A DNA stretch of 64,000 bases from Berberis thunbergii (lineage: Eukaryota > Streptophyta > Magnoliopsida > Ranunculales > Berberidaceae), in the NCBI GenBank assembly GCA_003290165.1, contig QNQO01000643.1, positions 62,001 to 126,000 on the forward strand, in the 5' to 3' direction. Under the pieces are notes generated by a model that saw nothing but the letters and a program-made list of their open reading frames with translations, did no database searches and was not told the origin of the DNA. The first letter of the stretch is position 1, and each line of letters opens with the position of its first letter. Made by a program: the position numbers and the translations under genes. This document shows positions 5,417 through 64,000 of the stretch, one piece after another.

Positions 5417-6773
5417 CTCTGCTGGATCTAAATGGAGGTCATCCTTTAAGTAAAAGCTCACGGCAAGCCTTGAAAGGCCTAAAACTCCCTGAACAAAATA
5501 TACCATTGCGACCGCAATGTTGTCTGGTGATAGATCCACCCCGAAGATTGTTAAAGAACTTGCGTAAGACCTCTTTTTACGGGCATTGGTATTGGAAGGG
5601 AAGGCTTCACCTTCCACATCTGTTTGTAATAGCTCTTCTTCTTCCATAAGTATCTCATTCCTTGATGCAGTGTCACCTGTGTATCAACAATCAAGTTTTA
5701 TCAGAAAAAAGAATGATTTTTCACAACTCTCTCTTTCTGATTTTTACCAATAGATATTCGCACATTAGGGAAAAAAAGCATTTTGACTGCCAATTTAGGA
5801 CCTCTTGGGTTAGTAAAAACCATTTTTTGTTTCTAAACTGCAAATGGCCGTTTTACTAATCAAGGATGAGAAGGTAAACAAGACGACTTATATTCAACAA
5901 CGAAAGCTAAACAAGTTTGTTCATGGACAACAGAACTGAATTGAATTTTCCAAAATTCAAACTTGTAAGCTTTTACCTATAATAAAAGAAGAATTGAGAT
6001 CAATTAGACCAAAGTGTAGGGTGTAAACTCGCTGCTCTGCATATCACTTCAGGTTAAATCTAACCATGTGTTTCCAACATTTAAGCTATAAAAAGCTCGT
6101 GTGACACATTTTTTTGTGGGTGCCGACCCTCTAGGCTCAAAGAAATAAAGACCATATAGACTCAAAGAAATAAAGACCATCAATTCCCTCAGCCCCAACT
6201 ATTTTTAATCTCTTTTACAATCACACCATAAGCCCTTCCGCTCAATTCTTGATCTCTTTTACAATTACACCATAAAGTCCATCCATTCACTTGTCCATCT
6301 CTTTCACAATCACCCCATAAACTCCTTCCATTCAAGCTAGTAAAGCAAACTTGAAGGGAAAAAACAGGCGAATAATTTGGTTCATTACAAGAGATTAAGA
6401 AGCAAAAGCAACTACCCCATTAGTTAAAATTACTGAAATTTAACTATTAGACAAGAATGGGTGCTATATAACGACACAACTACACTTCAGCGGAAACCAA
6501 TCATCGCAATAATTCGAAACCGTAACTAAATTTCACATCTTTACCACTAACTCCAACTTAACCATCCAAATTTATTACCAATTTAATGTGTTATAGCAAA
6601 TTGAGTATAGGGATAAGATCTTATCCATAAATGGGGCACTTTTACAATCCACAGATATAAATAAACCCAAAGAAAACTAAAAAAGACCGACCATTTCTTG
6701 ATTCTTGAAAAGCTTCTGCATCCCCATTCTCCTGCATGCGAGATTGCGCCGGAATCTGGACACTGACGGACAT
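5417..6773 (-). CDS. Folate-biopterin transporter (BT1/FBT family), first two coding exons only
   Basis: Plant BT1-family proteins are multi-span carriers of folates and pterins; one subgroup sits in the plastid envelope. Exon 2 (5676-5417) encodes [20 protein letters not shown] and [18 protein letters not shown], the hallmark first transmembrane region of the family. Its acceptor is TGATACACAG at 5677 and its donor GCAGAG/GTACAT at 5417. Exon 1 (6773-6692) starts at ATG 6773 ([10 protein letters not shown]) and ends AAATG/GTCGGT. The phases match: one base plus two bases make a Gly codon, giving 114 codons from this ATG. The next exon (the family continues with TAVISG-like sequence) is absent from the remaining 5.4 kb, so the gene is either truncated by the left-hand insertions or has a very long intron. 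Family assignment is confident; whether the gene works cannot be judged here. Confidence 0.8.
5677..6691 (-). other. Intron 1 of the transporter gene, with a small tandem repeat
   Basis: Bounded by the GT donor at 6691 and the AG acceptor at 5677. Near 6208-6335 three imperfect units of about 47 bp repeat the pattern TCTCTTTTACAATCACACCA plus a TCCATTCA-like tail. Just before it (about 6137-6180) the segment CTCAAAGAAATAAAGACCAT is duplicated. Otherwise unremarkable. Confidence 0.6.
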
Positions 6774-7113: not shown

Positions 7114-7712
7114 GGCTTAGACTTTTTGACACCACCAAATTCACTTTTTAACACCATTAAATCTCTTCTTTTTTACACTATCAATTCATTTTGCCTGTGA
7201 AATTACATTGTCAATACAATGGTTATCTCTTCTCTTTCACCCTCTCCCCTTCTCTCTTCTCAATAAGAGTCACCCACCCTACCACCGTTGGCTTCCCTGT
7301 GCCCCCTTCTTTCTCTCATCCCATCTTTTTTTATCTCCTCTTCTTATTCTCTTTTTTTCTCCTTCGCCCTTGTACAAACCTAAGCTTTCATCCTCACATA
7401 GGCTTGTGCGGGGGGCGAGGAGGAGCAGTGCAGCTAGTAGGCGGGGTGGATGATGTTGTTTCGCTATTCTTGAGAAAAGAGAATAAGAAAAAGGAAGAGA
7501 TGAGAAAAATGTGAGGGAAAGGGGTAGGTAGGGTGGAGGCGACAACTCTGTGATGCTTGTATTGCTGTCGTTCTTAAGAAGAGATGAGATGAGAGGGTGT
7601 GAGAGTAGAAAAACCCATTTTATTGGTGATGTTAAATAACAGGTGGTGGCGTTAGACAGAAAGATGGAGTGGTGTCAAATAAGGAAATTGGTGGTGTAAA
7701 AGAGTAGGGGCC
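7114..7712. mobile_element. Inverted-repeat DNA transposon, non-autonomous, ~599 bp
   Basis: The left end GGCTTAGACTTTTTGACACC pairs with the right end, which read in reverse is GGCCCCTACTCTTTTACACC; both continue into a similar CACCAA..TT segment. Pyrimidine-rich DNA near 7220-7370 and purine-rich DNA near 7465-7545 let most of the element fold back. TTTAAAA lies directly left (7107-7113) and again one base beyond the right end (7714-7720), a candidate target duplication. Superfamily not decided (hAT or Mutator). It lies about 120 bp upstream of the transporter's 5' exon, in the promoter position. Confidence 0.7.
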
Positions 7713-8031
7713 TTTTAAAATGTAGCTTAATTACCTGTGTTTGTTGATTTAACTCATCATCTAAATGATTTACAAATGACTAAAATGCCCTTTAAACGAT
7801 ATTTGATTATCAAAAAATTGTCGTGGAGATGATTTTTCAATCTTTAACATGTAAATAAATAAATGAAATTTTAAGTGTTTGGGGGGCAAGTAGTTAAAAT
7901 AATGATTGTCGTGTAATTTTAAATAACCAAAATTACATACATGAAGTTCTTGAACAGGTGTCATTCTTCTTAAACCTTATTTGAAGTATGGTCACAAGGT
8001 TAATCCTAACCATATATTAGCTTGCATTAGC

Positions 8032-8055
8032 TAGATACATATTACATCCATGTAT
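8032..8055. repeat. Left copy of 24-bp direct repeat flanking the viral insert
   Basis: Begins TAGATACATATTACATCC and is identical to 21485-21508. It may be a target duplication from integration, or a short terminal redundancy of the viral genome. The next few bases are also similar (ATTGCAAT here, TGTAAT there). Confidence 0.75.
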
Positions 8056-8059
8056 ATTG

Positions 8060-9099
8060 CAATACTTGTTTTTTTAGTTTACAAAAGGTTATGTTTCAAT
8101 CTAATGCAAATAACCCATTTTGGAAGAGAAAGTTCATTTATGGTATTCCTCCTATCTTTGCTGAAGCTGTTAGAGAAAAATTACAAGAAAACTACAAAGA
8201 TGACATTCCTTATGAACGTCTTACCTTTGGAGATATAATTGTTTTTATCAACAAATGTGTTCTGCATATTTGTAATGATTTATCAACAAATGTGCTCAAA
8301 GCCCAACTAAAGAAACAAAATATCCATGGCCCAAAAAAGCTAGGTGATTTCTGTCAACAGTATGGCTATGATGAATTTAAGATTCCTAATTATCATAAAC
8401 CATCCCAATCCAAACTCAAATATAGGTCTCATCCTGCTCGTCAATTTAAGTCCAACAAACCTTATGGACCTAAGCAACTCAAACCCAAAGAGTACAATCA
8501 ATATTACAATAAACCCAAAAACATGGTACGCATAAGCCCTAGCCTACCAAGCATTTTAAAAGAGTTTGGCTCAGTCCCATTCAAAGCCCGTTTGCTTTAA
8601 ATGTGGTAGATCAGGACATTATGCTAAAAATTGTAGAACAGCCCAAAAGATTCAAGAACTTCAGGCTCTTGAAGACATTAAACAAATGTTTCTCCAAGTT
8701 CTGATGAATTCTGAATCTGAATCTTCGAACGAAGAACTTCAAATTTACAATTTGAATCATTCTTCTGATTCTGATCAATATGATCAGATTGAAGATGATC
8801 ACTGTCTTGAAGCATGCCATTGCCATGCTCTTCACAGTATCAATATGTTTTCCAAATCAAAAGAATCAAGTATTCTTTTAGATTTTGTTGATCGTATTGA
8901 AGATCCCAATCTTAAAACAGAATATCTTCAACATATCAAACATAATTTAACTTCAAAACCATCACCTGAAGTCATAAATACATTTTATGATCACAAAGCT
9001 ATAATTGACAAATTTAAAATATCAAGTTCTTCTATCCCTGTCGATTTATCTGATCTTCAGCAAGAAGTCAATCATATCAAAAAGGATATTATGATTTAA
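8060..9099 (+). pseudogene. Viral coat protein, C-terminal half with zinc knuckle (defective)
   Basis: The first part (from about 8060) carries the caulimovirid coat core signature FIYGIPPIFAEAVREKL and IPYERLTFGD. A basic, Lys/Pro/Tyr-rich tail follows (about 8390-8560), which suits nucleic-acid binding. After a frame change near 8570-8600 the second frame gives the CX2CX4HX4C knuckle CFKCGRSGHYAKNC, then an acidic Ser/Glu/Asp tract and a Leu/Ile-rich segment to 9099. In living relatives this region packages the genome. The frameshift breaks the polyprotein, so it is non-functional. Confidence 0.88.
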
Positions 9100-48530: not shown

Positions 48531-49290
48531 GAAGTAAAAGTTGGACACCCAAGTCAACTTAACACAAAAACTTTGAATCGACTGGAATGTCGAGTTAACG
48601 AAGTAATACTTGGACACCTGAGCCAACTCAACACAAAAAATTCGAATCGACTGATACGTCAAATTAACGAAGTAAAAGTTGGACACCCTAGTCAACTCAA
48701 CACAAAAACTTCGAATTGACTGAAATGACAAGTTAACGAAGTAATAGTTGGACACCTGAGTCAACTCAACACAACAACTTCGAAACGACTGAGATGTCGA
48801 ATTAACGAAGTAAACGTTGGACACCCAAGTCAACTCAACACAAAAACTTTGAATTGATTGGAATGTCAAGTTAATGAAGTAAAAGTTGGACACTCGAGTA
48901 AACTCAACACAAAACTTTGAATCGACTGAGACGTCGAATTAATGAGGCAAAAGTTGGACACCAAATTCAAGTAAACAAAAAAATTTTGAGTCGACTAAAA
49001 CATCGAGTTAACGAGGTAAAAGTTGGACACCCGAGTCAACTCAATACAAAAACTTCAAATCGACTAAGACGTCAAATTAACGAAGTAAAAATTGGACACC
49101 CGACTTAACACAAAAAGTTCGAGTCGATTGAAATGTCGAGTTAACAAAGTAAAAGTTGAACAAACGATTCAACTTAACACAAAAACTTCAAGTCGACCGC
49201 GACGTTGAGTTAACGAAGAAGAAGCTTAACAAACAAGTTGACTTAACACAAGAACTTTGAGTCGACAGACACGTCGAATCAACGAAGTCA
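48531..49290. repeat. 69-bp minisatellite, ~11 units
   Basis: GAAGTAAAAGTTGGACACCC recurs at 48531, 48600, 48669, 48738, 48807, 48876, 48944, 49013 and 49082, then at slightly altered spacing to about 49284. The period is 69 bp (23 codons), so a minus-strand frame stays open over 48519-48893 with units like VSNFYFVNLTFQSIRSFCVE. Tat/Ogre-type elements often carry tandem repeats in such positions. Confidence 0.93.
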
Positions 49291-49485
49291 GAATTAAAGG
49301 AAAAAATCAACATGATTCGAGGAACTACAAACGAAAATAAACTTTTTTGCAGCACATCAAGAAGGATAAAACTGATGATGAGCCAAAACACGAAAGCAAC
49401 TACAAAGGAATTCAAAGCAAAATCAAAGAAAACTACAACTGAACTGAAAATAAAAGAAATAACAAAGTTCATTTCATTGATAATA

Positions 49486-49848: not shown

Positions 49849-49876
49849 AGGTGGTAAGCATAATGGAAGTATCTGC

Positions 49877-50346
49877 TGTCACGGACTAGTAATCCGTGCG
49901 GCACTAGTTATCCAATCCACTAGTAAGCCTATGAGTAGTTACTTTGACGGGCACAAATATTAACTTGAGAATGCACAATATCAATCTGTAGACAATATAA
50001 CAATGCACAATAGTCAGTAAAAGCTCTCATTCACATTCAATAGGTTACAATGGGGAGGAACGTTCGGAAGGACGTTGCTCAAGACTAGTTCGATGCTATC
50101 GATCGAAGAGAATACAAGTTTGAAGTTGAAAAACAATGCAAAGAAAATAATAAAAATGCTAGCGGTACAGTCTGGCCCGACTATGCAATGGAGGCAACAC
50201 GTCCTCACAGTCAAGAGCTCAAACCTTCCCCTATAATATAGATGCTAAGCATTTGGGCACTTTTCAAAAGGGAACATTGAGTTTTGAGACCATTAGACAT
50301 TGAGTTTTGAGACCATTAGGATGGCCTCTGACCTTGAGTCCTTACA
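49877..50346 (-). repeat. 3' LTR of the young chromovirus (470 bp)
   Basis: On the minus strand it opens TGTAAGGACTCAAGG and closes CGTGACA. The plus-strand CTCTCCCACAC just beyond (50347 on) is the complement of a purine-rich tract GTGTGGGAGAG. An AGTCCGTGACA-type terminus is shared with the 5' copy. Confidence 0.9.
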
Positions 50347-55022: not shown

Positions 55023-55024
55023 AC

Positions 55025-55167
55025 TGTCACGGACTAGTAATCCGTGCGGCACTAGTTATCCAATCCACTAGTAAGCCTATGAGTAGTTACTTTGACGGGC
55101 ACAAATATTAACTTGAGAATGCACAATATCAATCTGTAGACAATATAACAATGCACAATAGTCAGTA
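55025..55167 (-). repeat. Partial 5' LTR, 143 bp, cut by CACTA insertion
   Basis: Identical to 49877-50019. The remaining ~327 bp (matching 50020-50346) are replaced by CACTACACC at 55168. Confidence 0.93.
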
Positions 55168-55189
55168 CACTACACCAAAATGCCCGTTT

Positions 55190-55382
55190 AGCTACGGGGA
55201 GGTGGCCACGGCTCTAAGCCATTGGTTTATTTGCCACGGCTATAAACCGTGGATAGTGTGGCCAACGGCCAAAAACCGTGGCTAAAAAATAGTTAGCCAC
55301 GGCCCTAAACCGTGGGTGAATTAGCCACGGCCACAAACCGTTGCTGTATTGTGAAACGGCCAGAAACCGTTGCTAAATTAAA
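55190..55382. repeat. CACTA subterminal repeats, ~6 imperfect units
   Basis: Units such as GCCACGGCTATAAACCGTGG, AGCCACGGCCCTAAACCGTG and GCCACGGCCACAAACCGTTG, each nearly palindromic (CCACGG...CCGTGG). They are the likely transposase-binding sites. Confidence 0.9.
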
Positions 55383-55749
55383 TCACTTTGCACGTGCCAA
55401 ACTCCTGCGAGTGAGAGATTTGGAGAGTGCATGATTTCGCGCTCTGGCGAAAATGGGGGGAGAGTGATTTCGCGCTCTGGAGAAAAAAATTGGGGAAAAA
55501 ATTTGGCGAAAATTTGGCGAATTTTGTTTTTGCTATTTCGACCTAGATTTCGACCTAAATCAGAGAGAGGTTTGGCGCAGAGGAGAAGAAGGACGAACTG
55601 AAGAAGAAGATGAAGAACCGAAGCAGATTCTCAGATCCAGCGAGGAGCTCTCTGCCCTGATCTCAGATCCAGCGAAGAGGAGGGGTTCCAGCGAGGAGAA
55701 GAAGTTCTCGGCCTGCTCTCAGATTAGTTCAGATCTCCTTCCTGGTAAG
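55383..55749 (+). other. Non-coding leader-like region of the CACTA element
   Basis: Duplicated TGATTTCGCGCTCTGG (about 55430 and 55468), GA-rich stretches and a good donor CTTCCTG/GTAAGATG at about 55744 suggest a transposon-derived first exon ahead of the captured sequences. Confidence 0.45.
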
Positions 55750-55824
55750 ATGTTTCAGTTCCACTTAGTTATTTGCTTCTTTGAATTGGTGAGAGTTGTT
55801 TCCATTCAAACAAAAAATTGTCTT

Positions 55825-56385
55825 GCACATTATCAGATTAAGGTCCAACACCACCACCACCACCACCACCACCACCACCCTTATTTCTCAACTCTCACCA
55901 ACCATGAAATGTATCAAGCACAACTAGATAACCACAACACTGCCGAGGAAAACCATTTTGTTGCTTGCAATCCCTCACTCCCTCAAGTGTCTGAAGATGG
56001 GGTAGGAGGTTTTAGGAACTGGGTTTCAAGGAATTATTGTCAAGAAATGGAGCAAAAGTTGGATGGGGGTTCACGGTGGGTGGTGATGAAGGAGGAGGTT
56101 CTGGGTCAGTCTGTGCAATGGGGTATGGAGATTTGCAGTCACTTAGCTTGTCAATGAGTCCTGGATCTCAATCAAGTTGTATTACAGCACCCCCACCCCA
56201 GCAAATTTCCCCAACTGGAGGAGGAGGAAATGAATGTGTGGTGGCTATGGAGACAACAAAGAAGAGAGGGTCAGGAAGGAAGGTGGTGGGACAGAAACAA
56301 CCAGTTCACAGGAAGTCCATAGACACATTTGGTCAGAGGACATCACAGTGTATAGGTGTTACAATGTCTGTGTTCAAACCCGGTG
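55825..56385 (+). pseudogene. Captured AINTEGUMENTA-like (AP2-type AIL) exon 1 fragment
   Basis: AIL proteins are paired-AP2-domain transcription factors of meristems. A (CAC)10 tract gives poly-His followed by PYFSTL, then GGFRNWVSRNY. After a frame change near 56100 comes YGDLQSLSLSMSPGSQSSC and VHRKSIDTFGQRTSQ, the conserved lead-in to the first AP2 domain (56130-56360). The next residues should be YRGVTR; here they read CIGVT and the sequence leaves the AP2 domain, at about the position of the first intron. The donor that should follow looks mutated (ACAATGTCTG). Both AP2 domains are absent, so this is a broken fragment. Confidence 0.87.
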
Positions 56386-59076
56386 TCTTTAATTTATTTT
56401 ACCTTTTGTTTTTTGTATTTTTGGGGTTTCTATCATCATTTCATTCATTCATTCTTCCATGATGTTTTTTTTAATACAATTGTTGTTTCTTCAAATCAGC
56501 TCAAGTGAACCATAGAAGCTCAACAACTTTAACTTCCTCAACTCCAGGTACTCGAACAATATTTTTTTTTTGCAATAATTGATCTTTTCTTTTAATGGAG
56601 TCTCTTAAGTTTCAGTTTTTGTTGATGGGTTTTTCTTATTTTGCTTAGATTCTGTGTTTTTGTGTTAATATCTATATGAGGCAATGGGGTTTTGGTATAA
56701 TTTTATTGGATCTTGTACTCAAATAGAAATCCATTTAAAAACTAAACTTTGTTGTAGTTATGTGTGTTAATGGTGTTTTAGGACCTCAAAATTGTCAGTT
56801 TTTATCTCAAATTGAACTGGGATCTTCTTCCTCTTGGAATCCAAACAATACCCATTATGTCATTTCTTGTACATGTTCCTTAAGTTTCAGAATCTTTCAC
56901 ACCAAGTCCCTTAATTAATAATCTGCTTTAGTTTTGTGTTAGAACATCAAAAGCTCCAGCTTGACTCAAAAACACCGGATGGGGTTTTGGATTTGTGGGT
57001 TACCCTTTTTAATACAATAAAAGAATCTATTTTGTACTTGTTCATAAGAGATTAAGGGAATTCTGATTAGTACTCTGACACACTAGATCCTATGTATTAA
57101 TTATAGGGTCATCAAAGGCCAATAACAATGGAGGTGGTGGTGATCACCATCCTTATTTTTGTTATGTGCTTTTGTCATTGAAATTAGAGTCAATTCTTTG
57201 TTGCTGTGGTGGTGATCATTTGTTTGTAATATGGATGTTTATAACTAAAATTGTATCAAATGGATGTTTGGATGAAGTAATTATTGAAACAAACACGCTT
57301 TGTATTTGGTGATTTTGTTAAATCTTTGATGTGTTTTATCTTCAGATCGAGGGTTTTGGAGGTTTGGGGTTTACTGATTCTACTAAGTTGGGGTCGGGGA
57401 GTCACCAATGAATCTCAATTCATCAGATTCAAGTAAGTTTCTTCCCAATTCATCTCATTGGATACTTTCATTTGTTGATCTGATTGATGATTTCTCTCCA
57501 ATGTAGTAGATTTTAAGAAAATTAGGGTTTTTTATCTTGACCCATTTGAAATCTTATTTATATGAGCTGGTGCACCAAGCAATTTTTCATTTGTTGATCT
57601 GTTTAATGTATTCTCTCATCCTTCAATCCTCTTTACTTTTACATAATTCATTTCAAATCTTGTCCATTTCTCATTATAAGGTCGACCATGGTAGCGGTAA
57701 AGTTTCTCATTATAAGGTTGACCCTGTTTTTCTTTTTGCTGATTCTTGCATTATACATTGTACAACAAAACGTGTAAGATGTGTCAGTTCATACGTTTTA
57801 TGTATTATCGGAGTTTTGTCTTTGATTTGCTATCATGAAAGAAAAGCAGAATAATTTTTGTCTTACTTTTTGTGCTAACCTCTGTGTGTCTTCTAATGTT
57901 GGTTGATAAAGAAAAACAACTATTTAAACTTAAGACCAGGGAAATGTAGGGCAATTGAACAGACCACCCACAGGTACAAGTAGCCTAAACAAGATAAACA
58001 TAGGAAACAAAAGCTGAAACAGTCCGCCCTAAGATGCTCTAGTCAGTTGATTCCGTATATTTATTTACAACACTTATTCATATGAAGTCTCATTTGTACA
58101 ATTAGTATGTGGACAGAACCCATTTCTATCCACTTGCAAGTGCCTATCTGTTCGAGATGTTGTGCCTTTTACAAAAAAAAAACAATTCTCAAGGAGTGTT
58201 GAGTCTTGTTTATGTTGAGAAGGTAAGCCTCTTTGTTTTGAGAAGAAGACCGAAAGAAGGTAAGTCTCTGTAGTAAGACCAGAAAGAGAGGATTACCTTC
58301 TTTCGTTTCTTCTTCTTCTTCTTCTTGTTCATTCCTGGTCTTCTTCTCAAAATAGCAAGCCAATGCTACTGGTCTTACTATATAACAAATACCCAACTTA
58401 GGCCTTGAGTTGGGCTTTTGAAATTGGGCCATTTAAAACTATTCTTGGACTAGACACCTTTGGCCAAGCCTCAAACTAATTCTTGGGCCTTTTGCTCCTT
58501 GTTTTGCTCCTTTTATTTGCATGTAAGCATTCAAAGTCATGTATATGTTAAAAAAATATATTAAAAATATTAAGTTTGACCGTGTCGCCGAGTCCTATTT
58601 TTTTTTAAAATCGCCGAGTCGTCGTGTCATATCCGTGTCCGAGTCCGAGCATCCTTGCATGCAAGTCATGATGCCTTTCCAACAATATCTTAAGCAAACA
58701 TGGATATTTGTGCCTTTTGATACTGGACACTATATGCTGATGCATCTCTTATGGTATGACCTTTTTTAGTTTCTTCACATCTCAATGTTAGCCAAGTATT
58801 TAACAGGTGCCACTTGGGTCATCCCGTCTATTTTATCAAGCTATGCAGATTATTTTTTAAATCAGTTTGTAAATTATGTTTAGGTTGATAATGCAATTTT
58901 GTAATTTGAACATTTTTCTTTTGTTTCTGTCATTGCATGGTGTAGATTCTCTTCTTCCTATCATGTTGTAGATCAGCTTCATATTGCTTTAAATTGTGGT
59001 TAATTTTTTCAGTCATGATTTGTACTTTCTGCCACTATGATTGCCCTTTTAATCTGAGTGAGTTTTTAAAATATAG
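56386..59076 (+). other. CACTA interior: intron-like DNA with unrecognised exon-like pieces
   Basis: AT-rich. Exon-like pieces: 56490-56548 ending TCAACTCCAG/GTACTC; about 57108-57160 encoding SSKANNNGGGGDHHP; and about 57344-57433 encoding IEGFGGLGFTDSTKLGSGSH and ending GATTCAA/GTAAGT. None recognised. A Mutator-type end relic lies at 58560-58657. A small TTCTTC/GAAGAA fold-back lies at 58215-58350. Confidence 0.45.
58560..58657. repeat. Solo MULE terminal sequence, same family as the 44.2-kb element
   Basis: CGCCGAGTCCTATTTTTTTT, then GTCGTGTCATATCCGTGTCC and CCGAGCATCCTTG, parallel 45545-45644, the right end of the MULE. No left end or 9-bp duplication is visible here. Confidence 0.7.
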
Positions 59077-59286
59077 GATCCAAGTATAAAGGAATTAGCT
59101 GAGCAGATAGCAAAAGATCCTGCTTTCAATCAGATGGCTGAGCAGCTCCAAAAGAGTGTTCAAAATTCAAATGATGATGGCATACTTGCGCTTGATACAA
59201 ATCAGTACTACTCCACCATGCAACAAGTTATGTAGAATCCTCAATTCAAGACTATGGCCGAGCGCCTTGGTAATGCCTTGATTCAG
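59077..59286 (+). pseudogene. Captured AKR2-type ankyrin protein exon
   Basis: AKR2 proteins are cytosolic chaperones for chloroplast outer-envelope proteins. This 210-bp, phase-0 exon is bounded by ATATAG and CAG/GTATGA and encodes [29 protein letters not shown] and NPQFKTMAERLGNALIQ, the N-terminal helical repeats before the ankyrin domain. An in-frame TAG (59233-59235) sits where relatives have a codon such as GAG, the only lesion seen. No other AKR2 exon is present. Confidence 0.87.
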
Positions 59287-59555
59287 GTATGATCTTCATT
59301 ATAATTTTTCAGATGCTTGACATAATATGTTCTAAAGAGGAATGCACAGTTTAATTCATTGTTGCTATAGGATCCAGCTACATCAAACAAGCACACCCTT
59401 AATTTCATTTATATGGATTGTAATCTAAGTGGACATGCTACTATAGCTGCTACATGATGCAAAACAATGCAAAATTTTATAGTTCAATTTTCCCCCTTAA
59501 ATAAAATCTTGAGAAATCTATAATGATTCACAATTCATTTGTTCCAATGGTGAAG

Positions 59556-60147
59556 GTTTCTGGAAGTGTTACATATAATGGACACACTATGAAAGAGTTT
59601 GTTCCTCAAAGGACATCGGCCTACATCAGTCAGCAAGACCTGCATATTGGTGACATGACTGTAAGGGAAACCTTGGATTTCTCTGCTCGATGTCAGGGTG
59701 TTGGATATAGACAAGGTAATTTTTTTCTCAAGACCTCCTCTTTTACATTTTCTATATATAGTTTCGACAAACTACTTGTAATTGGTTTTGACCTTTCAAA
59801 ATAATTGCAGATGTTCTCACTGAACTTGCAAGAAGGGAGAAACATTATTCGGTCAAACCAGATGCAGATATCGACGTTTTTATGAAGGTAACAAAAGGAT
59901 ACTGGTAGCTAAGAAAAACAACTCAGCACAATTCCTTTAAAATATCGTACAATCTATGAATTTGTTACACTCCTTGCATTTCAGGCAGCAGCAATTCAAG
60001 GACAAAAGTCCAGCATCCTCACTGATTATACCTTAAAGGTAAAAAGTCTGCATTACTAGATGCATACACATTGTAGTTTAGATGTAAACATTCAAAAAAA
60101 AATGAAAAGTAAGCATCAATTTTTCAGTTACTGGGGCTAGATTGCAG
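59556..60147 (+). pseudogene. Captured PDR-type ABCG transporter exons
   Basis: PDR/ABCG full-size transporters export diterpenes, hormones and other compounds across the plasma membrane. Exon a (59556-59715) encodes [19 protein letters not shown] and [20 protein letters not shown]; exon b (59811-59887) LTELARREKHYSVKPDADI; exon c (59985-60038) AAAIQGQKSSILTDYTLK; exon d starts about 60128 with LLGLD and is cut. All donors and acceptors between them are canonical. Together they cover the first nucleotide-binding domain between the Walker A region and the signature motif; Walker A, signature and membrane parts are absent. Confidence 0.9.
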
Positions 60148-60240
60148 CTTTTTGAAACATTGAATTTGTTGTTACATTTGAGGGTCATTCCCATCTTTAA
60201 TGAAAATGATGCAATTAGTACCAGGAAATCTCCATACGAG
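60148..60240 (+). pseudogene. Captured P5CS (glutamate kinase domain) exon
   Basis: Encodes [20 protein letters not shown] and ISTRKSPYE, ending at a GAG/GTATAT donor. This matches the glutamate 5-kinase part of plant delta-1-pyrroline-5-carboxylate synthase, the entry enzyme of proline synthesis (family landmark IPIFNENDA). It abuts the cut PDR exon d with an AG acceptor at GATTGCAG. Only one exon is present. Confidence 0.85.
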
Positions 60241-62899
60241 GTATATTATGCTTCAATGCTCTCCCTGACTTGAATTTGAGTTTAAATGATTAAAAAAAGT
60301 ATTGACATGAACGGAAATCTTTCCTATTCATCTGTTTCCATATATCATTTGCTTGTGTGTAGTAAACAATTTTGTCATTTGCACTTTAGGAGTATGATCA
60401 TTAAATGTGGGGGTGTTTGTTTGATTAAGAGGCTGCGGACTGGAAGGACTGGGCACTGGTTGTTGCGGACTGTGCTGCGGCCTGGACTGGTGGTAAGGCC
60501 GTGGCGAGATGGTGGATACGCGTTAGGCTGATGTCGCCGCTAGTGTTTATTTTTTTCTAAATTGAGACGTGAGCCGATAGTATAAAGGTCAGGCCCCATT
60601 ATTAATGGAGGTGGTTTGATTTTATTAATTAGATAATTCCCTTTGAGAATTAAGAATTGATTAGTGACAGTTCTTTGATTCAATATCTCTATTGTGTTTC
60701 CATGTTAAATTTTATATTACAATGTCACACATACCTAGCTTACAAGTTCACAAAATGAAGATGACTACTTGCACCAAAAAATGTAGTAGATAGGAAGATG
60801 CCATATACTGTTATAGCCGGAATAATGGGAATCAGAGGAGATATCTTTATAGTGTCATGAAGACATGAAACCATCGTTCCTTTTGATATGAAGAATGAAA
60901 ATTAACATCACTGCTGTAGGAATTAACCTTGGCAGTGCATTTGTTTCTGCAGGTTGCTATGGAAGACCCAAAAAGGTTTCGGATAGAAATGACATTCAGC
61001 CGCGGTGCAGATCTGAGCCCTTTAGAGGTAGTGGCGGAGACTATAAGATTGTCATGATCATAATTTATCCTCGTGGCATGTCTGAACCATGAGGCTTAGA
61101 CTGTTACCTATTTTATTTATTTTTGGCTTTGTGAAATATCAATTCAATGAAACAAAATATACATGATGTTCACTGAAATAACTGTCGTTCATGTCAATGT
61201 AGTCTGGCAGCATGGACTCTTTTCCATCAGTTTGATCTCTGAACCATGTCGATCAGCCCACTTTGCAGCCATCAAAGCAGCCAAAGAAGCAGCCATGAAA
61301 TCTGCTAGAGATGGGCATGGTAAGTTATTCTGGTCTAGATGCTCATTGTCCTTACTTTATTAGCCTTTATAATGGGAGATGCATCTGAAATTTCATTACA
61401 ATAAAACAAGAACCACTAAATAAGACAATTCTGTCAATTGGGGTTCTTGATTTTTGCTGAAAATTCTTGAATCTTATCTTGTCCCATGCTAGTCAATGTT
61501 CTAAATTGGTTGGTGGAATGCATGTATCCTCTTTGTTAGATTGTTTATGTCTTCATGTGTAAGGAAAGGTAAAACAAAGCACGCAGCCTTGATAAACTAA
61601 CCTCTAATAAGACTCTAAAGTATTCGTATGAGCAATGATACTCGAAACGATATGAGTACCATACGGAATTTGCTTAATATCCAAAGCTAACAAGAATAGT
61701 GTATAGAATATGAGTTTCTCAGATTTTATTATTTGACTGGATCAAAAGGAGGTTTTAATTTGTTTTAAGACAGGAGTTATTAATATTATGTTTTGGTTGT
61801 TTTGTTTATTTGTGTATTGGTTTATTTTTATGCATTAATTTGTCCAAGGCATATGAAATAGATAATTGAAGAATTTGGTATCAGTATTGGTGTTTTTCTG
61901 TCAACATGGATGTGTTATGTATAATGGAGTGTCAGTTAGTATAAACAATGTTATGGCGTCTTATTTTCACTCTTATGGAAGGTTTTGGTATAAACCGATA
62001 TAAGTGGTTCTTGTTTTATTGTAATTTAGTGGTTAGCGACTTTCATGTTAAAAAAATTTTATTCCAGGAATTTTTTTTTCAGTTTTAAAGGTTTTTACTT
62101 GGACTGCTAGTAGAGATTCTGCAAAATACATCGTATAGCTCTTTACTAACTTTGACATCAACAGCCGCAGCATTTCATGCAATCTTTGCCACCAATGCAA
62201 TGGGCCCAGTTGCAACATCAAGCTGAGACAGCAAGTGCAGCAACAGGGAATTCAACCGGTCTGTTTTGGGGCTGACTCTGTTTTGTGACAGCAAGCTGGG
62301 GGCTGAGTTGTGACAGAAATTTGGACTGAATTAGATGGTTCAATCGTCGAATCTGTTAGCTGCCTAAGTGGGTTGGTTGAATCCTCCCAGACTGCTCTCA
62401 TTAAGGCAATTCAAAATGGTTTGGTTGTCCTCACATACTGCTTTAAGGACATTCAAAATGTTAGTATTAAGTGGAATGTTTGAATTGCTCTTGAGTATTT
62501 CAATTAAGTTCACTAAAATGATTCAAAAGCTTTCTTTTTTCTCCTAATAGTTAAGAAATAAAGGAAATATAAGTTTTTCCTTTGATAACTCATTTTGCAA
62601 GGGGTCCTAATTTTTTTTACTTTTTTTGGGGTGTGTGTTTTTGATATAGAATAACTTTTGTCTTCTGAAACTGAACTGTAACCATATTAGCACTGTGAAT
62701 CATTTTCAGATTCTGAGCTGTTTTCGTTTCCATAAATAGAAGTCTTATTTCCTTTAAATGTTATGCTGGTTCAGCGTGGCCCTTTGTAGTCGAGTTACAG
62801 ATTGATTGATTTGTGTGGTTCTATGGATAGTATTTTATTCCTTTTGAACTTTTATATTAGGGTTGAGTTGTGACGCTGCTATCATGCTTTTCTTTGCAG
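60241..62899 (+). other. CACTA interior between P5CS and HAC fragments, with unrecognised exon-like pieces
   Basis: Exon-like pieces with splice sites: about 60953-61027, CAG/GTTGCTATGGAAG to TTAGAG/GTAG, encoding [20 protein letters not shown]; about 61201-61319, encoding the Ala-rich SAHFAAIKAAKEAAMKSARD and ending GCATG/GTAAGT; about 62166-62260, encoding the Gln-rich QHFMQSLPPMQWAQLQHQAE. I do not recognise their source genes. A GC-rich patch (about 60420-60530, GGACTGGAAGGACTGGGC) is of unknown origin. Confidence 0.5.
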
Positions 62900-63752
62900 A
62901 TAGGGTACCTGGAATATTGCAAGAAGCAGGGATTCACAAGCTGCTACATATGGGCATGCCCTCCATTAAAAGGCGAAGATTATATTTTATATTGTCATCC
63001 TGAAATTCAGAAAACACCAAAATCTGATAAGCTCAGGGAATGGTGAGTCTATTATCCTCACAGAATAGTCTTTTCCGACAATTTTTTGGTGGGTAATTCA
63101 TGCATGGGATTTCCATCTCTTCTGCCTGATAGCTCTACCTGGTATGTACCTCTGTCAGGTATTTGGCTATGTTACGAAAAGCTGCAAAGGAAAATATTGT
63201 GGTCGAGCTCACGAATTTATATGATCATTTCTTTGTAACCACTGGTGAATGTAAGGCTAAGGTCACTGCTGCTCGGTTGCCATATTTTGATGGTGACTAT
63301 TGGCCTGGTGCTGCTGAGGACATGATAAATCAACTGCGGCAAGAAGATGGAAGGAAACAACAAAAGAAGATGTAAGGCTAAGTTTTATTTCTTCTTTTGC
63401 ACAGACATAATATTCATTGCTTTCTTACGACTCTATTATTCAACAGCTTGGTGAAACTATCTCCCCGATGAAGGAAGATTTTATTATGGTACACTTGCAG
63501 TATGCTTGCACTCATTGTTGTCATCTTATGGCATCTGGAATGCGTTGGGTCTGCAAGCAATGCAGTAATTTTCAGCTATGCGACAAGTAAGCATTCTTTA
63601 CCGTGTTATTTTATTTTGATTTTGTATTATTTTCAAAGTAATTTTCAGCTATGCGACAAGTAATTTTCAAAGTTATGCATTGCATTTATCCTGATCTTGG
63701 CTTACATAAGAAAATAAATAAAAATTGCAGGCAAAGACTTGAGAAAATTGAG
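62900..63752 (+). pseudogene. Captured HAC (p300/CBP-type histone acetyltransferase) exons
   Basis: HAC proteins acetylate histones as transcription co-activators. Exon a (62900-63042) encodes [20 protein letters not shown] and [18 protein letters not shown]; exon b (63159 to about 63372) [19 protein letters not shown] and [19 protein letters not shown]; these are catalytic-domain sequence. Exon c (63447-63586) encodes [19 protein letters not shown] and CTHCCHLM...WVCKQC, the ZZ-type zinc finger. A last piece (from 63731) reads QRLEKIE and a stop, unlike the family. Splice sites are kept. A 25-30 bp piece around the exon c end is repeated at about 63638-63662. The N-terminal TAZ/PHD part and the C-terminus are absent. 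Confidence 0.9.
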
Positions 63753-64000
63753 TAACTGTTAGAACCAATCCCTCTTGTTGGATTCCTTATAGGTGCGTAT
63801 GTGGTCATTTTTTTAATTACATGATTTTTCATGGCTATCTTTTGTAGTTTTGTTCCAAACATACTCATCAAAAGAACTTTATCGCTTATTTGTACACAAC
63901 TAAAGTTTTATAGCTTGTTATTGGCGCTCAAACACGGTATGCATACATAGAGAGTTGTGTTTTCATCAAGAAAGGTTGAGCAACATATTTGACGACATTT
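63753..64000. other. Non-coding end of window
   Basis: AT-rich; no transposon terminus, LTR remainder or exon recognised. Confidence 0.45.

Follow-up and report, generated by a model that had tools for sequence, protein, structure and literature searches.

A probable Pack-CACTA-type transposon bearing pieces of seven or more host genes inside a chromovirus of Berberis thunbergii

A 64,000-nucleotide stretch of the Berberis thunbergii genome (bases 62001-126000 of contig QNQO01000643.1, here C643; hereafter the window) raises the question of how exon fragments of several unrelated genes came to lie in one orientation beside a CACTA transposon end that cuts the long terminal repeat (LTR) of a chromovirus. 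Our reading, to which we assign a probability of roughly 0.93, is that the locus is a non-autonomous Pack-CACTA-type CACTA (En/Spm) transposon inserted in the LTR, that it carries pieces of seven or more genes and that it belongs to a multi-copy family. The assembly searched comprises 2.24 Gb in 11,732 contigs, and contig C643 was read rightward for 40 kb past the window end. In the match searches a limited number of places was scored out of larger sets of first-look candidates, and first-look counts are not copy numbers.

Element ends and the host chromovirus

A first-pass annotation of the window had described a CACTA terminus cutting the chromovirus LTR at 55168 and had predicted what should follow on the far side. 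The terminal sequence CACTACACCA is found at 55168 with 0 mismatches, as the sole perfect match on both strands of the 64-kb window, and the 144 bp preceding it (55024-55167) are identical to 49876-50019 of the intact LTR. Past the window end, the opposite CACTA end TGGTGTAGTG occupies 66746-66755, followed by GTA at 66756-66758 and then by the missing 327 bp of the interrupted LTR up to 67085, just as predicted. Membership of the fragments in one element, earlier only presumed, is now shown by the opposite end, the matching 3-bp duplications and the split LTR. The features that define the element and its host are as follows.

49876..50346, minus strand: intact LTR of the host chromovirus, whose other LTR is interrupted by the CACTA element
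55168..64000, plus strand: left part of the CACTA element in the window; element end at 66755 (L004:2755), total length 11,588 bp, target duplication GTA
55165..55167, no strand: left member of the 3-bp GTA target duplication, whose right member is at 66756-66758
55168..55180, plus strand: terminal inverted repeat, 13 bp and perfect, CACTACACCAAAA; partner at 66743-66755
55202..55377, plus strand: subterminal repeats of the GCCACGGC..AAACCGTGG type; a larger set lies at about 66158-66740

Assignment to the CACTA (En/Spm) class follows from identity of 13/13 terminal bases at the two ends, the 3-bp duplication and the presence of subterminal repeats at both ends. Of the 27 matches to the subterminal motif, 6 fall in the first 250 bp of the element and 20 in its last ~610 bp, leaving 1 elsewhere, as against a mean of 2.2 matches over the entire element in 200 shuffled versions. 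A 3-bp duplication was seen in both of the copies that were read at both ends, GTA on C643 and TTC on C36; for a further copy, on C7430, the reading covered the left end only, and it is outside this count. Two outcomes named in advance as speaking against a single element did not occur: 0 of the 30 left-end loci read end near 55.4 kb, and the element closes at 66755 instead of running on into intact genes beyond the window.

Stop-free frames reach at most 229 aa in 55168-64000, counting both strands, and at most 130 aa in 64001-66150, where the plus strand alone was counted. Within the frames scanned the element has no transposase gene of its own, as the definition of a Pack-CACTA demands; no transposase domain was detected in ten open frames on both strands, a scan that leaves room for small remnants and for the minus strand past 64000. 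Rfam and tRNA scans gave no matches.

The chromovirus itself spans 49876-67085, with TCTGC on either flank. When the LTR flanks are rejoined without one GTA and compared with the intact LTR, 470/470 aligned bases are identical, with one 1-base gap in each sequence. Plant substitution rates are near 1.3e-8 per site per year, and because there are 0 substitutions in 470 bp at this rate, the chromovirus is most likely younger than about 0.25 million years. The CACTA insertion is later than the retrotransposon that holds it. Just outside the chromovirus, at window positions 49003-49311, short direct repeats some 107 bp long were also observed.

Gene fragments and the source of the HAC piece

At least seven host-gene fragments are present in the element: AIL/ANT, AKR2, PDR-type ABCG, P5CS, HAC, XPO1 (exportin-1) and TPR (TOPLESS-related); at least two more exon-like pieces have no gene name. 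The earlier count of five was too low, since XPO1 exons and a TPR-like C-terminus lie beyond the window at 64.7-65.8 kb. All fragments identified are on the plus strand, in line with the original description; the minus strand was searched by Pfam alone (4 frames), which is weak for single exons. Those within the window are listed below.

55900..56370, plus strand: presumed AIL/ANT-type fragment that reaches the beginning of the first AP2 domain (HRKSIDTFGQRTSQ)
59077..59286, plus strand: exon with AG and GT borders, which we take to be AKR2-like
59557..60038, plus strand: PDR-type ABCG fragment with introns kept; exon pieces 59557-59715, 59811-59887 and 59985-60038
60128..60240, plus strand: P5CS exon fragment, glutamate-kinase part, matched by NCBIfam and by solved P5CS chains
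60953..61027, plus strand: exon of 25 aa without a gene name, AG and GT borders
61222..61319, plus strand: exon end without a gene name, GT donor; the C7430 copy has 0.88 kb extra directly upstream
62314..63636, plus strand: HAC histone acetyltransferase fragment with introns, matching the HAC gene at C644:139801-143000 (minus strand)

Four of the names are backed by tools. The HAC piece is recognised by Pfam through KAT11 (PF08214, E 2e-5 in one exon and 0.08 in the next) and ZZ (E 5e-5), the PDR piece by NCBIfam TIGR00956 (E 1.6e-12), the P5CS piece by NCBIfam TIGR01092 (E 1.6e-9), and the XPO1 piece by PF18777, which scores over its cut-off. Among the five genes originally named, HAC, PDR and P5CS thus stand with tool support, and AIL/ANT and AKR2 are, like TPR, names presumed from motifs. 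Pfam left the AIL, AKR2, PDR and TPR pieces unnamed. A protein search with the TPR piece returned 26 candidates, none at E <= 0.001, in a database presumed poor in plant proteins; a PDB search gave no match for the exon at 60953-61027, TPR or AIL, and for XPO1 only CRM1 at a non-significant E of 0.41. Peptide strings presumed typical of AIL and AKR2 matched no paper in a literature search.

Splice borders are largely preserved, as had been claimed. An AG border lies upstream of 11 of the 13 listed exon pieces (AIL excluded), the exceptions being PDR exon 1 and the piece ending at 61319. A GT donor is kept in 11 of the 12 pieces that need one, the exception being HAC exon 2, whose donor was removed by a deletion; the last TPR piece closes with a stop codon and hence needs no donor. 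Some pieces are damaged: the AIL reading frame shifts near 56100, and the AKR2-like exon is interrupted by an in-frame stop at 59233-59235. Inside the cargo, 60410-60560 (starting GGGGGTGTTTGTTTGATT) is unusually GC-rich and gives the impression of the start of a small nested transposon.

The HAC fragment could be compared with a gene in the same genome. HAC genes were located by a TAZ-domain search of the assembly; at three loci (L072-L074) the first 4-kb pieces missed the copied part and were excluded from all counts, and the fourth (L075, on C644) held it. This locus aligns with element bases 7147-8201 at 98.8% and 8213-8469 at 99.2% identity, introns included, and TAZ domains flank the matched block on both sides; the stretch upstream of the block is one we take to encode a PHD finger. 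Since its introns match those of the HAC gene elsewhere, the HAC piece is copied as DNA, and because the matching gene remains on a separate contig, transduplication holds for HAC; copied host coding DNA with its source gene still elsewhere is the other property of a Pack-CACTA. The alignment, with deletion filler excluded, covers 1,313 columns, of which 12 show a substitution and 3 are gap columns; this would amount to some 0.35-0.65 million years if the rate lies between 7e-9 and 1.3e-8.

Relative to the gene, the window HAC piece has internal deletions at about 63369-63379 (deletion 1) and after 63636 (deletion 2), each with filler that has a local source.

63370..63382, plus strand: templated filler of 13 bp at deletion 1; source 63249-63261, 121 bp upstream
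63637..63663, plus strand: templated filler of 27 bp at deletion 2; source 63564-63590, 73 bp upstream

Filler at both deletions fits interrupted repair synthesis with template switching, a process that excerpts of two papers discuss for other transposons (PMC8277862, PMC3260210).

Copies, subfamilies and coding constraint

The window element belongs to a multi-copy family. A 433-bp left-end query gave 3,457 first-look candidates, and the best 40, which were scored, are all 92-100% identical. At the 30 of these loci that were read (own copy included) the left end is followed by the AIL block in every case, with an internal deletion in one (L037). After merging six look-alike pairs, the 30 left flanks comprise 24 distinct 12-bp readings, one of which (L017) was misread, the end motif not being located there; these flanks show repeated insertion at independent loci, a further property of a Pack-CACTA. 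Loci L001-L003, located with a presumed CACTA end, were left out. Because six pairs among L008-L037 have identical 12-bp left flanks, the assembly seems to hold separate haplotypes or homeologs, and the locus counts seem somewhat too high.

The cargo queries behaved similarly, the best 40 places being scored in each case. The HAC query (237 candidates) gave 9 full-length matches, 1 over 736/866 bases and 30 split matches, in which a first part of 474 bases (472 in one) is followed by a second match further along. The middle-cargo query (1,405 candidates) gave 12 full-length and 16 partial matches and 12 to the PDR part alone, and these last may belong to other elements. The TPR query (383 candidates) gave 40 full-length matches at 98-100% identity. 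The middle-cargo and TPR queries could not reveal source genes, because cargo repeats occupied all 40 scored places. Matches that share a contig and a strand within 20 kb were linked, a procedure that tests order and not strand, and formed 117 groups; 32 hold at least two modules, and the order left end, middle, HAC, TPR is kept in 32/32. The large-scale transduplication proposed for the window is supported by these data, amended in that the element is a member of a large family and not a single event.

Three further copies illustrate the variation. The C7430 copy differs from the window element by 5 substitutions in 11,065 aligned bases and small indels; we also observed in it (L038-L039) the 0.88 kb of extra cargo, at element base 6055, which includes an apparent C-terminal exon of a gene without a name. 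The C36 copy has both ends, 99.4-99.7% identity and most of the same cargo, lacks 1.66 kb of the window element and carries 0.49 kb of the extra stretch of C7430. A second subfamily (L054 1-3474, with similar loci among L053-L071) has the same HAC block without both deletions, about 1.9 kb long in the L054 copy, and with different neighbours: upstream, an exon-like piece with a weak HEAT-repeat resemblance in Pfam (E 0.008, below cut-off), and downstream a piece that we take to be exportin and for which Pfam gave no match. There are at least two cargo subfamilies, and modules appear to be exchanged between them.

The P5CS exon has a wider distribution. A P5CS family search gave 624 candidates, and the best 62, when scored, yielded 66 matches, 52 of them to one exon (profile positions ~104-160); 8 of these have the next P5CS exon close by and look gene-like, and 44 are without it. 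Most of the 44 lone exons were seen to retain a 71-aa open frame. One of them, at C5864:262074-262244 (minus strand), falls outside the CACTA copy with its left end at C5864:263706. Another mobile family may spread this P5CS exon.

Variable sites at codon positions 1/2/3 number 9/11/13 in AIL (29 copies) and 5/6/4 in HAC (three exons pooled, 30 copies each), own copy included, and show no sign of coding constraint among the AIL and HAC copies in what is a weak test. Frames are unbroken in 23/29 AIL copies and in 30/30, 27/30 and 27/30 copies of the three HAC exons, which fits youth of the copies as much as constraint. The cargo looks most like a passenger, and no coding constraint on it could be detected.

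Origin of the cargo and known systems

How could such a cassette arise? We propose that a transposase provided in trans would move the element, and that gene pieces would be gained over time during repair of excision gaps, when the repair strand switches to host templates. The same repair process could leave internal deletions with locally copied filler, and cut-and-paste movement would then disperse the cassette.

Several points weigh against this account of the element. No library or tool used gave the names AIL/ANT, AKR2 or TPR, which we presume from motifs, and the comparison with a source gene covers HAC only. One base of the second HAC exon that is present in 5/5 element copies compared is missing from C644, so that C644 may contain an assembly error or may not be the exact donor allele. 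With the lone P5CS exon at many loci and PDR alone at 12, the P5CS and PDR pieces may have been acquired via other mobile elements and not directly from genes. Finally, the filler explains the origin of the deletions and not the first gene capture.

It is this last step for which the strongest competitor offers another route: capture by adjacent insertion, in which two related CACTA elements flank host DNA and their outer ends move together, without template switching. We regard it as unlikely but deserving real weight. It is the mechanism proposed for Arabidopsis Pack-CACTA elements in excerpts of PMC13317346 and PMC8903248, and it allows long contiguous capture, such as the HAC block of L054. 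It would, however, require many rounds for many short pieces of different genes, and the templated filler at the deletion junctions speaks against it. Two XPO1-like pieces also seem to depart from the presumed gene order, one at 64.34 kb, which we take to be XPO1-like, preceding that at 64.72 kb.

A quite doubtful proposal is that the family retains a one-way colinear cassette, built of the element's 5' end, internal exons and a last exon with stop and 3' region, because transcription and splicing through a copy, or small RNAs that it makes against shared host genes, help that copy to evade silencing or to spread better. If it were true, the element would be a high-copy exon-shuffling machine, with modules traded among subfamilies. 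Improbable to a greater degree is a selected chimeric gene, in which transcripts driven by an element promoter would be spliced across the exons it captured and finish at the stop codon and 3' end of TPR. The common direction of the identified exons, most with AG/GT borders, and a last piece that supplies the stop codon would suit such a gene, and the exons of soybean Tgm-Express1 are spliced into transcripts (excerpts of PMC1947982). Against it stand the even variation over codon positions, the in-frame stop in AKR2, the altered AIL frame and the large internal deletions that distinguish copies.

We consider it very improbable that a Helitron holds the cargo and is nested within a short CACTA remnant. 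Multiple fragments, retained introns and a single orientation are typical of maize Helitrons and are found here. However, the cargo travels with the CACTA ends: the C36 and C643 copies, which sit between different flanks, have the ends and most of the cargo in common, and each is bordered by a 3-bp duplication of its own; the left end is linked to cargo modules at 18 of the 32 multi-module loci; the Helitron pattern of no inverted ends, no duplication and A/T insertion is not what is seen, although Helitron ends were not separately searched for. Ordinary host genes or pseudogenes beside a CACTA end, or an assembly chimera, can practically be dismissed, for while the window showed one CACTA end only, the opposite end and the LTR remainder were found, the same arrangement occurs on other contigs, and the HAC gene on C644 has TAZ domains either side of the copied block. 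The Helitron and ordinary-gene readings are both rejected on the CACTA ends and the copies at other loci.

CACTA capture of gene fragments is well known, and the route by which the pieces enter is debated. The family described here has many near-identical copies, two or more cargo subfamilies, a source gene that can be read and deletion junctions with templated filler, which make it possible to order capture and erosion stepwise in one genome. There is also a warning for annotation: HAC pieces and TPR pieces are each found at 40 or more loci, and there are dozens of places with PDR and P5CS exons, many of which are not genes.

Comparison with known systems, drawn from excerpts of the cited papers, places the element readily. 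Tgm-Express1, in the soybean wp allele, is a CACTA element that took up exons and introns from five unrelated genes and whose captured exons appear in spliced transcripts (PMC1947982); the likeness lies in a CACTA element with exons and introns of unrelated host genes, whereas Tgm-Express1 is 5.7 kb with five genes and demonstrated expression, and the Berberis element is 11.6 kb with at least seven genes and known from sequence. Many copies, and one source gene compared within the same genome, are further differences. The Tpn1 family of Ipomoea nil has 339 copies, with a mean of 7,081 bp and a longest of 40,619 bp (PMC5105172); compared by features only, it is likewise a CACTA family, almost all of it non-autonomous, with ends that are conserved, host genes captured internally and 3-bp duplications, but in Berberis a long colinear cargo, besides the ends, is common to many copies. 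Maize Pack-CACTAs contain pieces of several loci (PMC8903248), and the Pack-CACTA or Pack-TYPE definition in the excerpts of PMC8903248 and PMC13317346 describes what is found here: CACTA ends, coding DNA and no transposase found. CACTA Pack-TYPE elements are mostly low copy in rice and maize (PMC8903248), in contrast to the dozens of near-identical loci in Berberis. Jozin of Chenopodium (PMC8978399) has an 80-bp AP2 fragment in its 5' region, similar to the AP2-family fragment here; its four quoted ends start CACTAGT and a transposase is present, whereas the Berberis element starts CACTACACC. The element fits Tgm-Express1, Tpn1 and Pack-CACTA in all tested features; its kind is known, and we do not claim the family as unpublished. 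For this known kind, the size of the element, the number of genes in it, the cargo shared among copies and the number of copies seem high.

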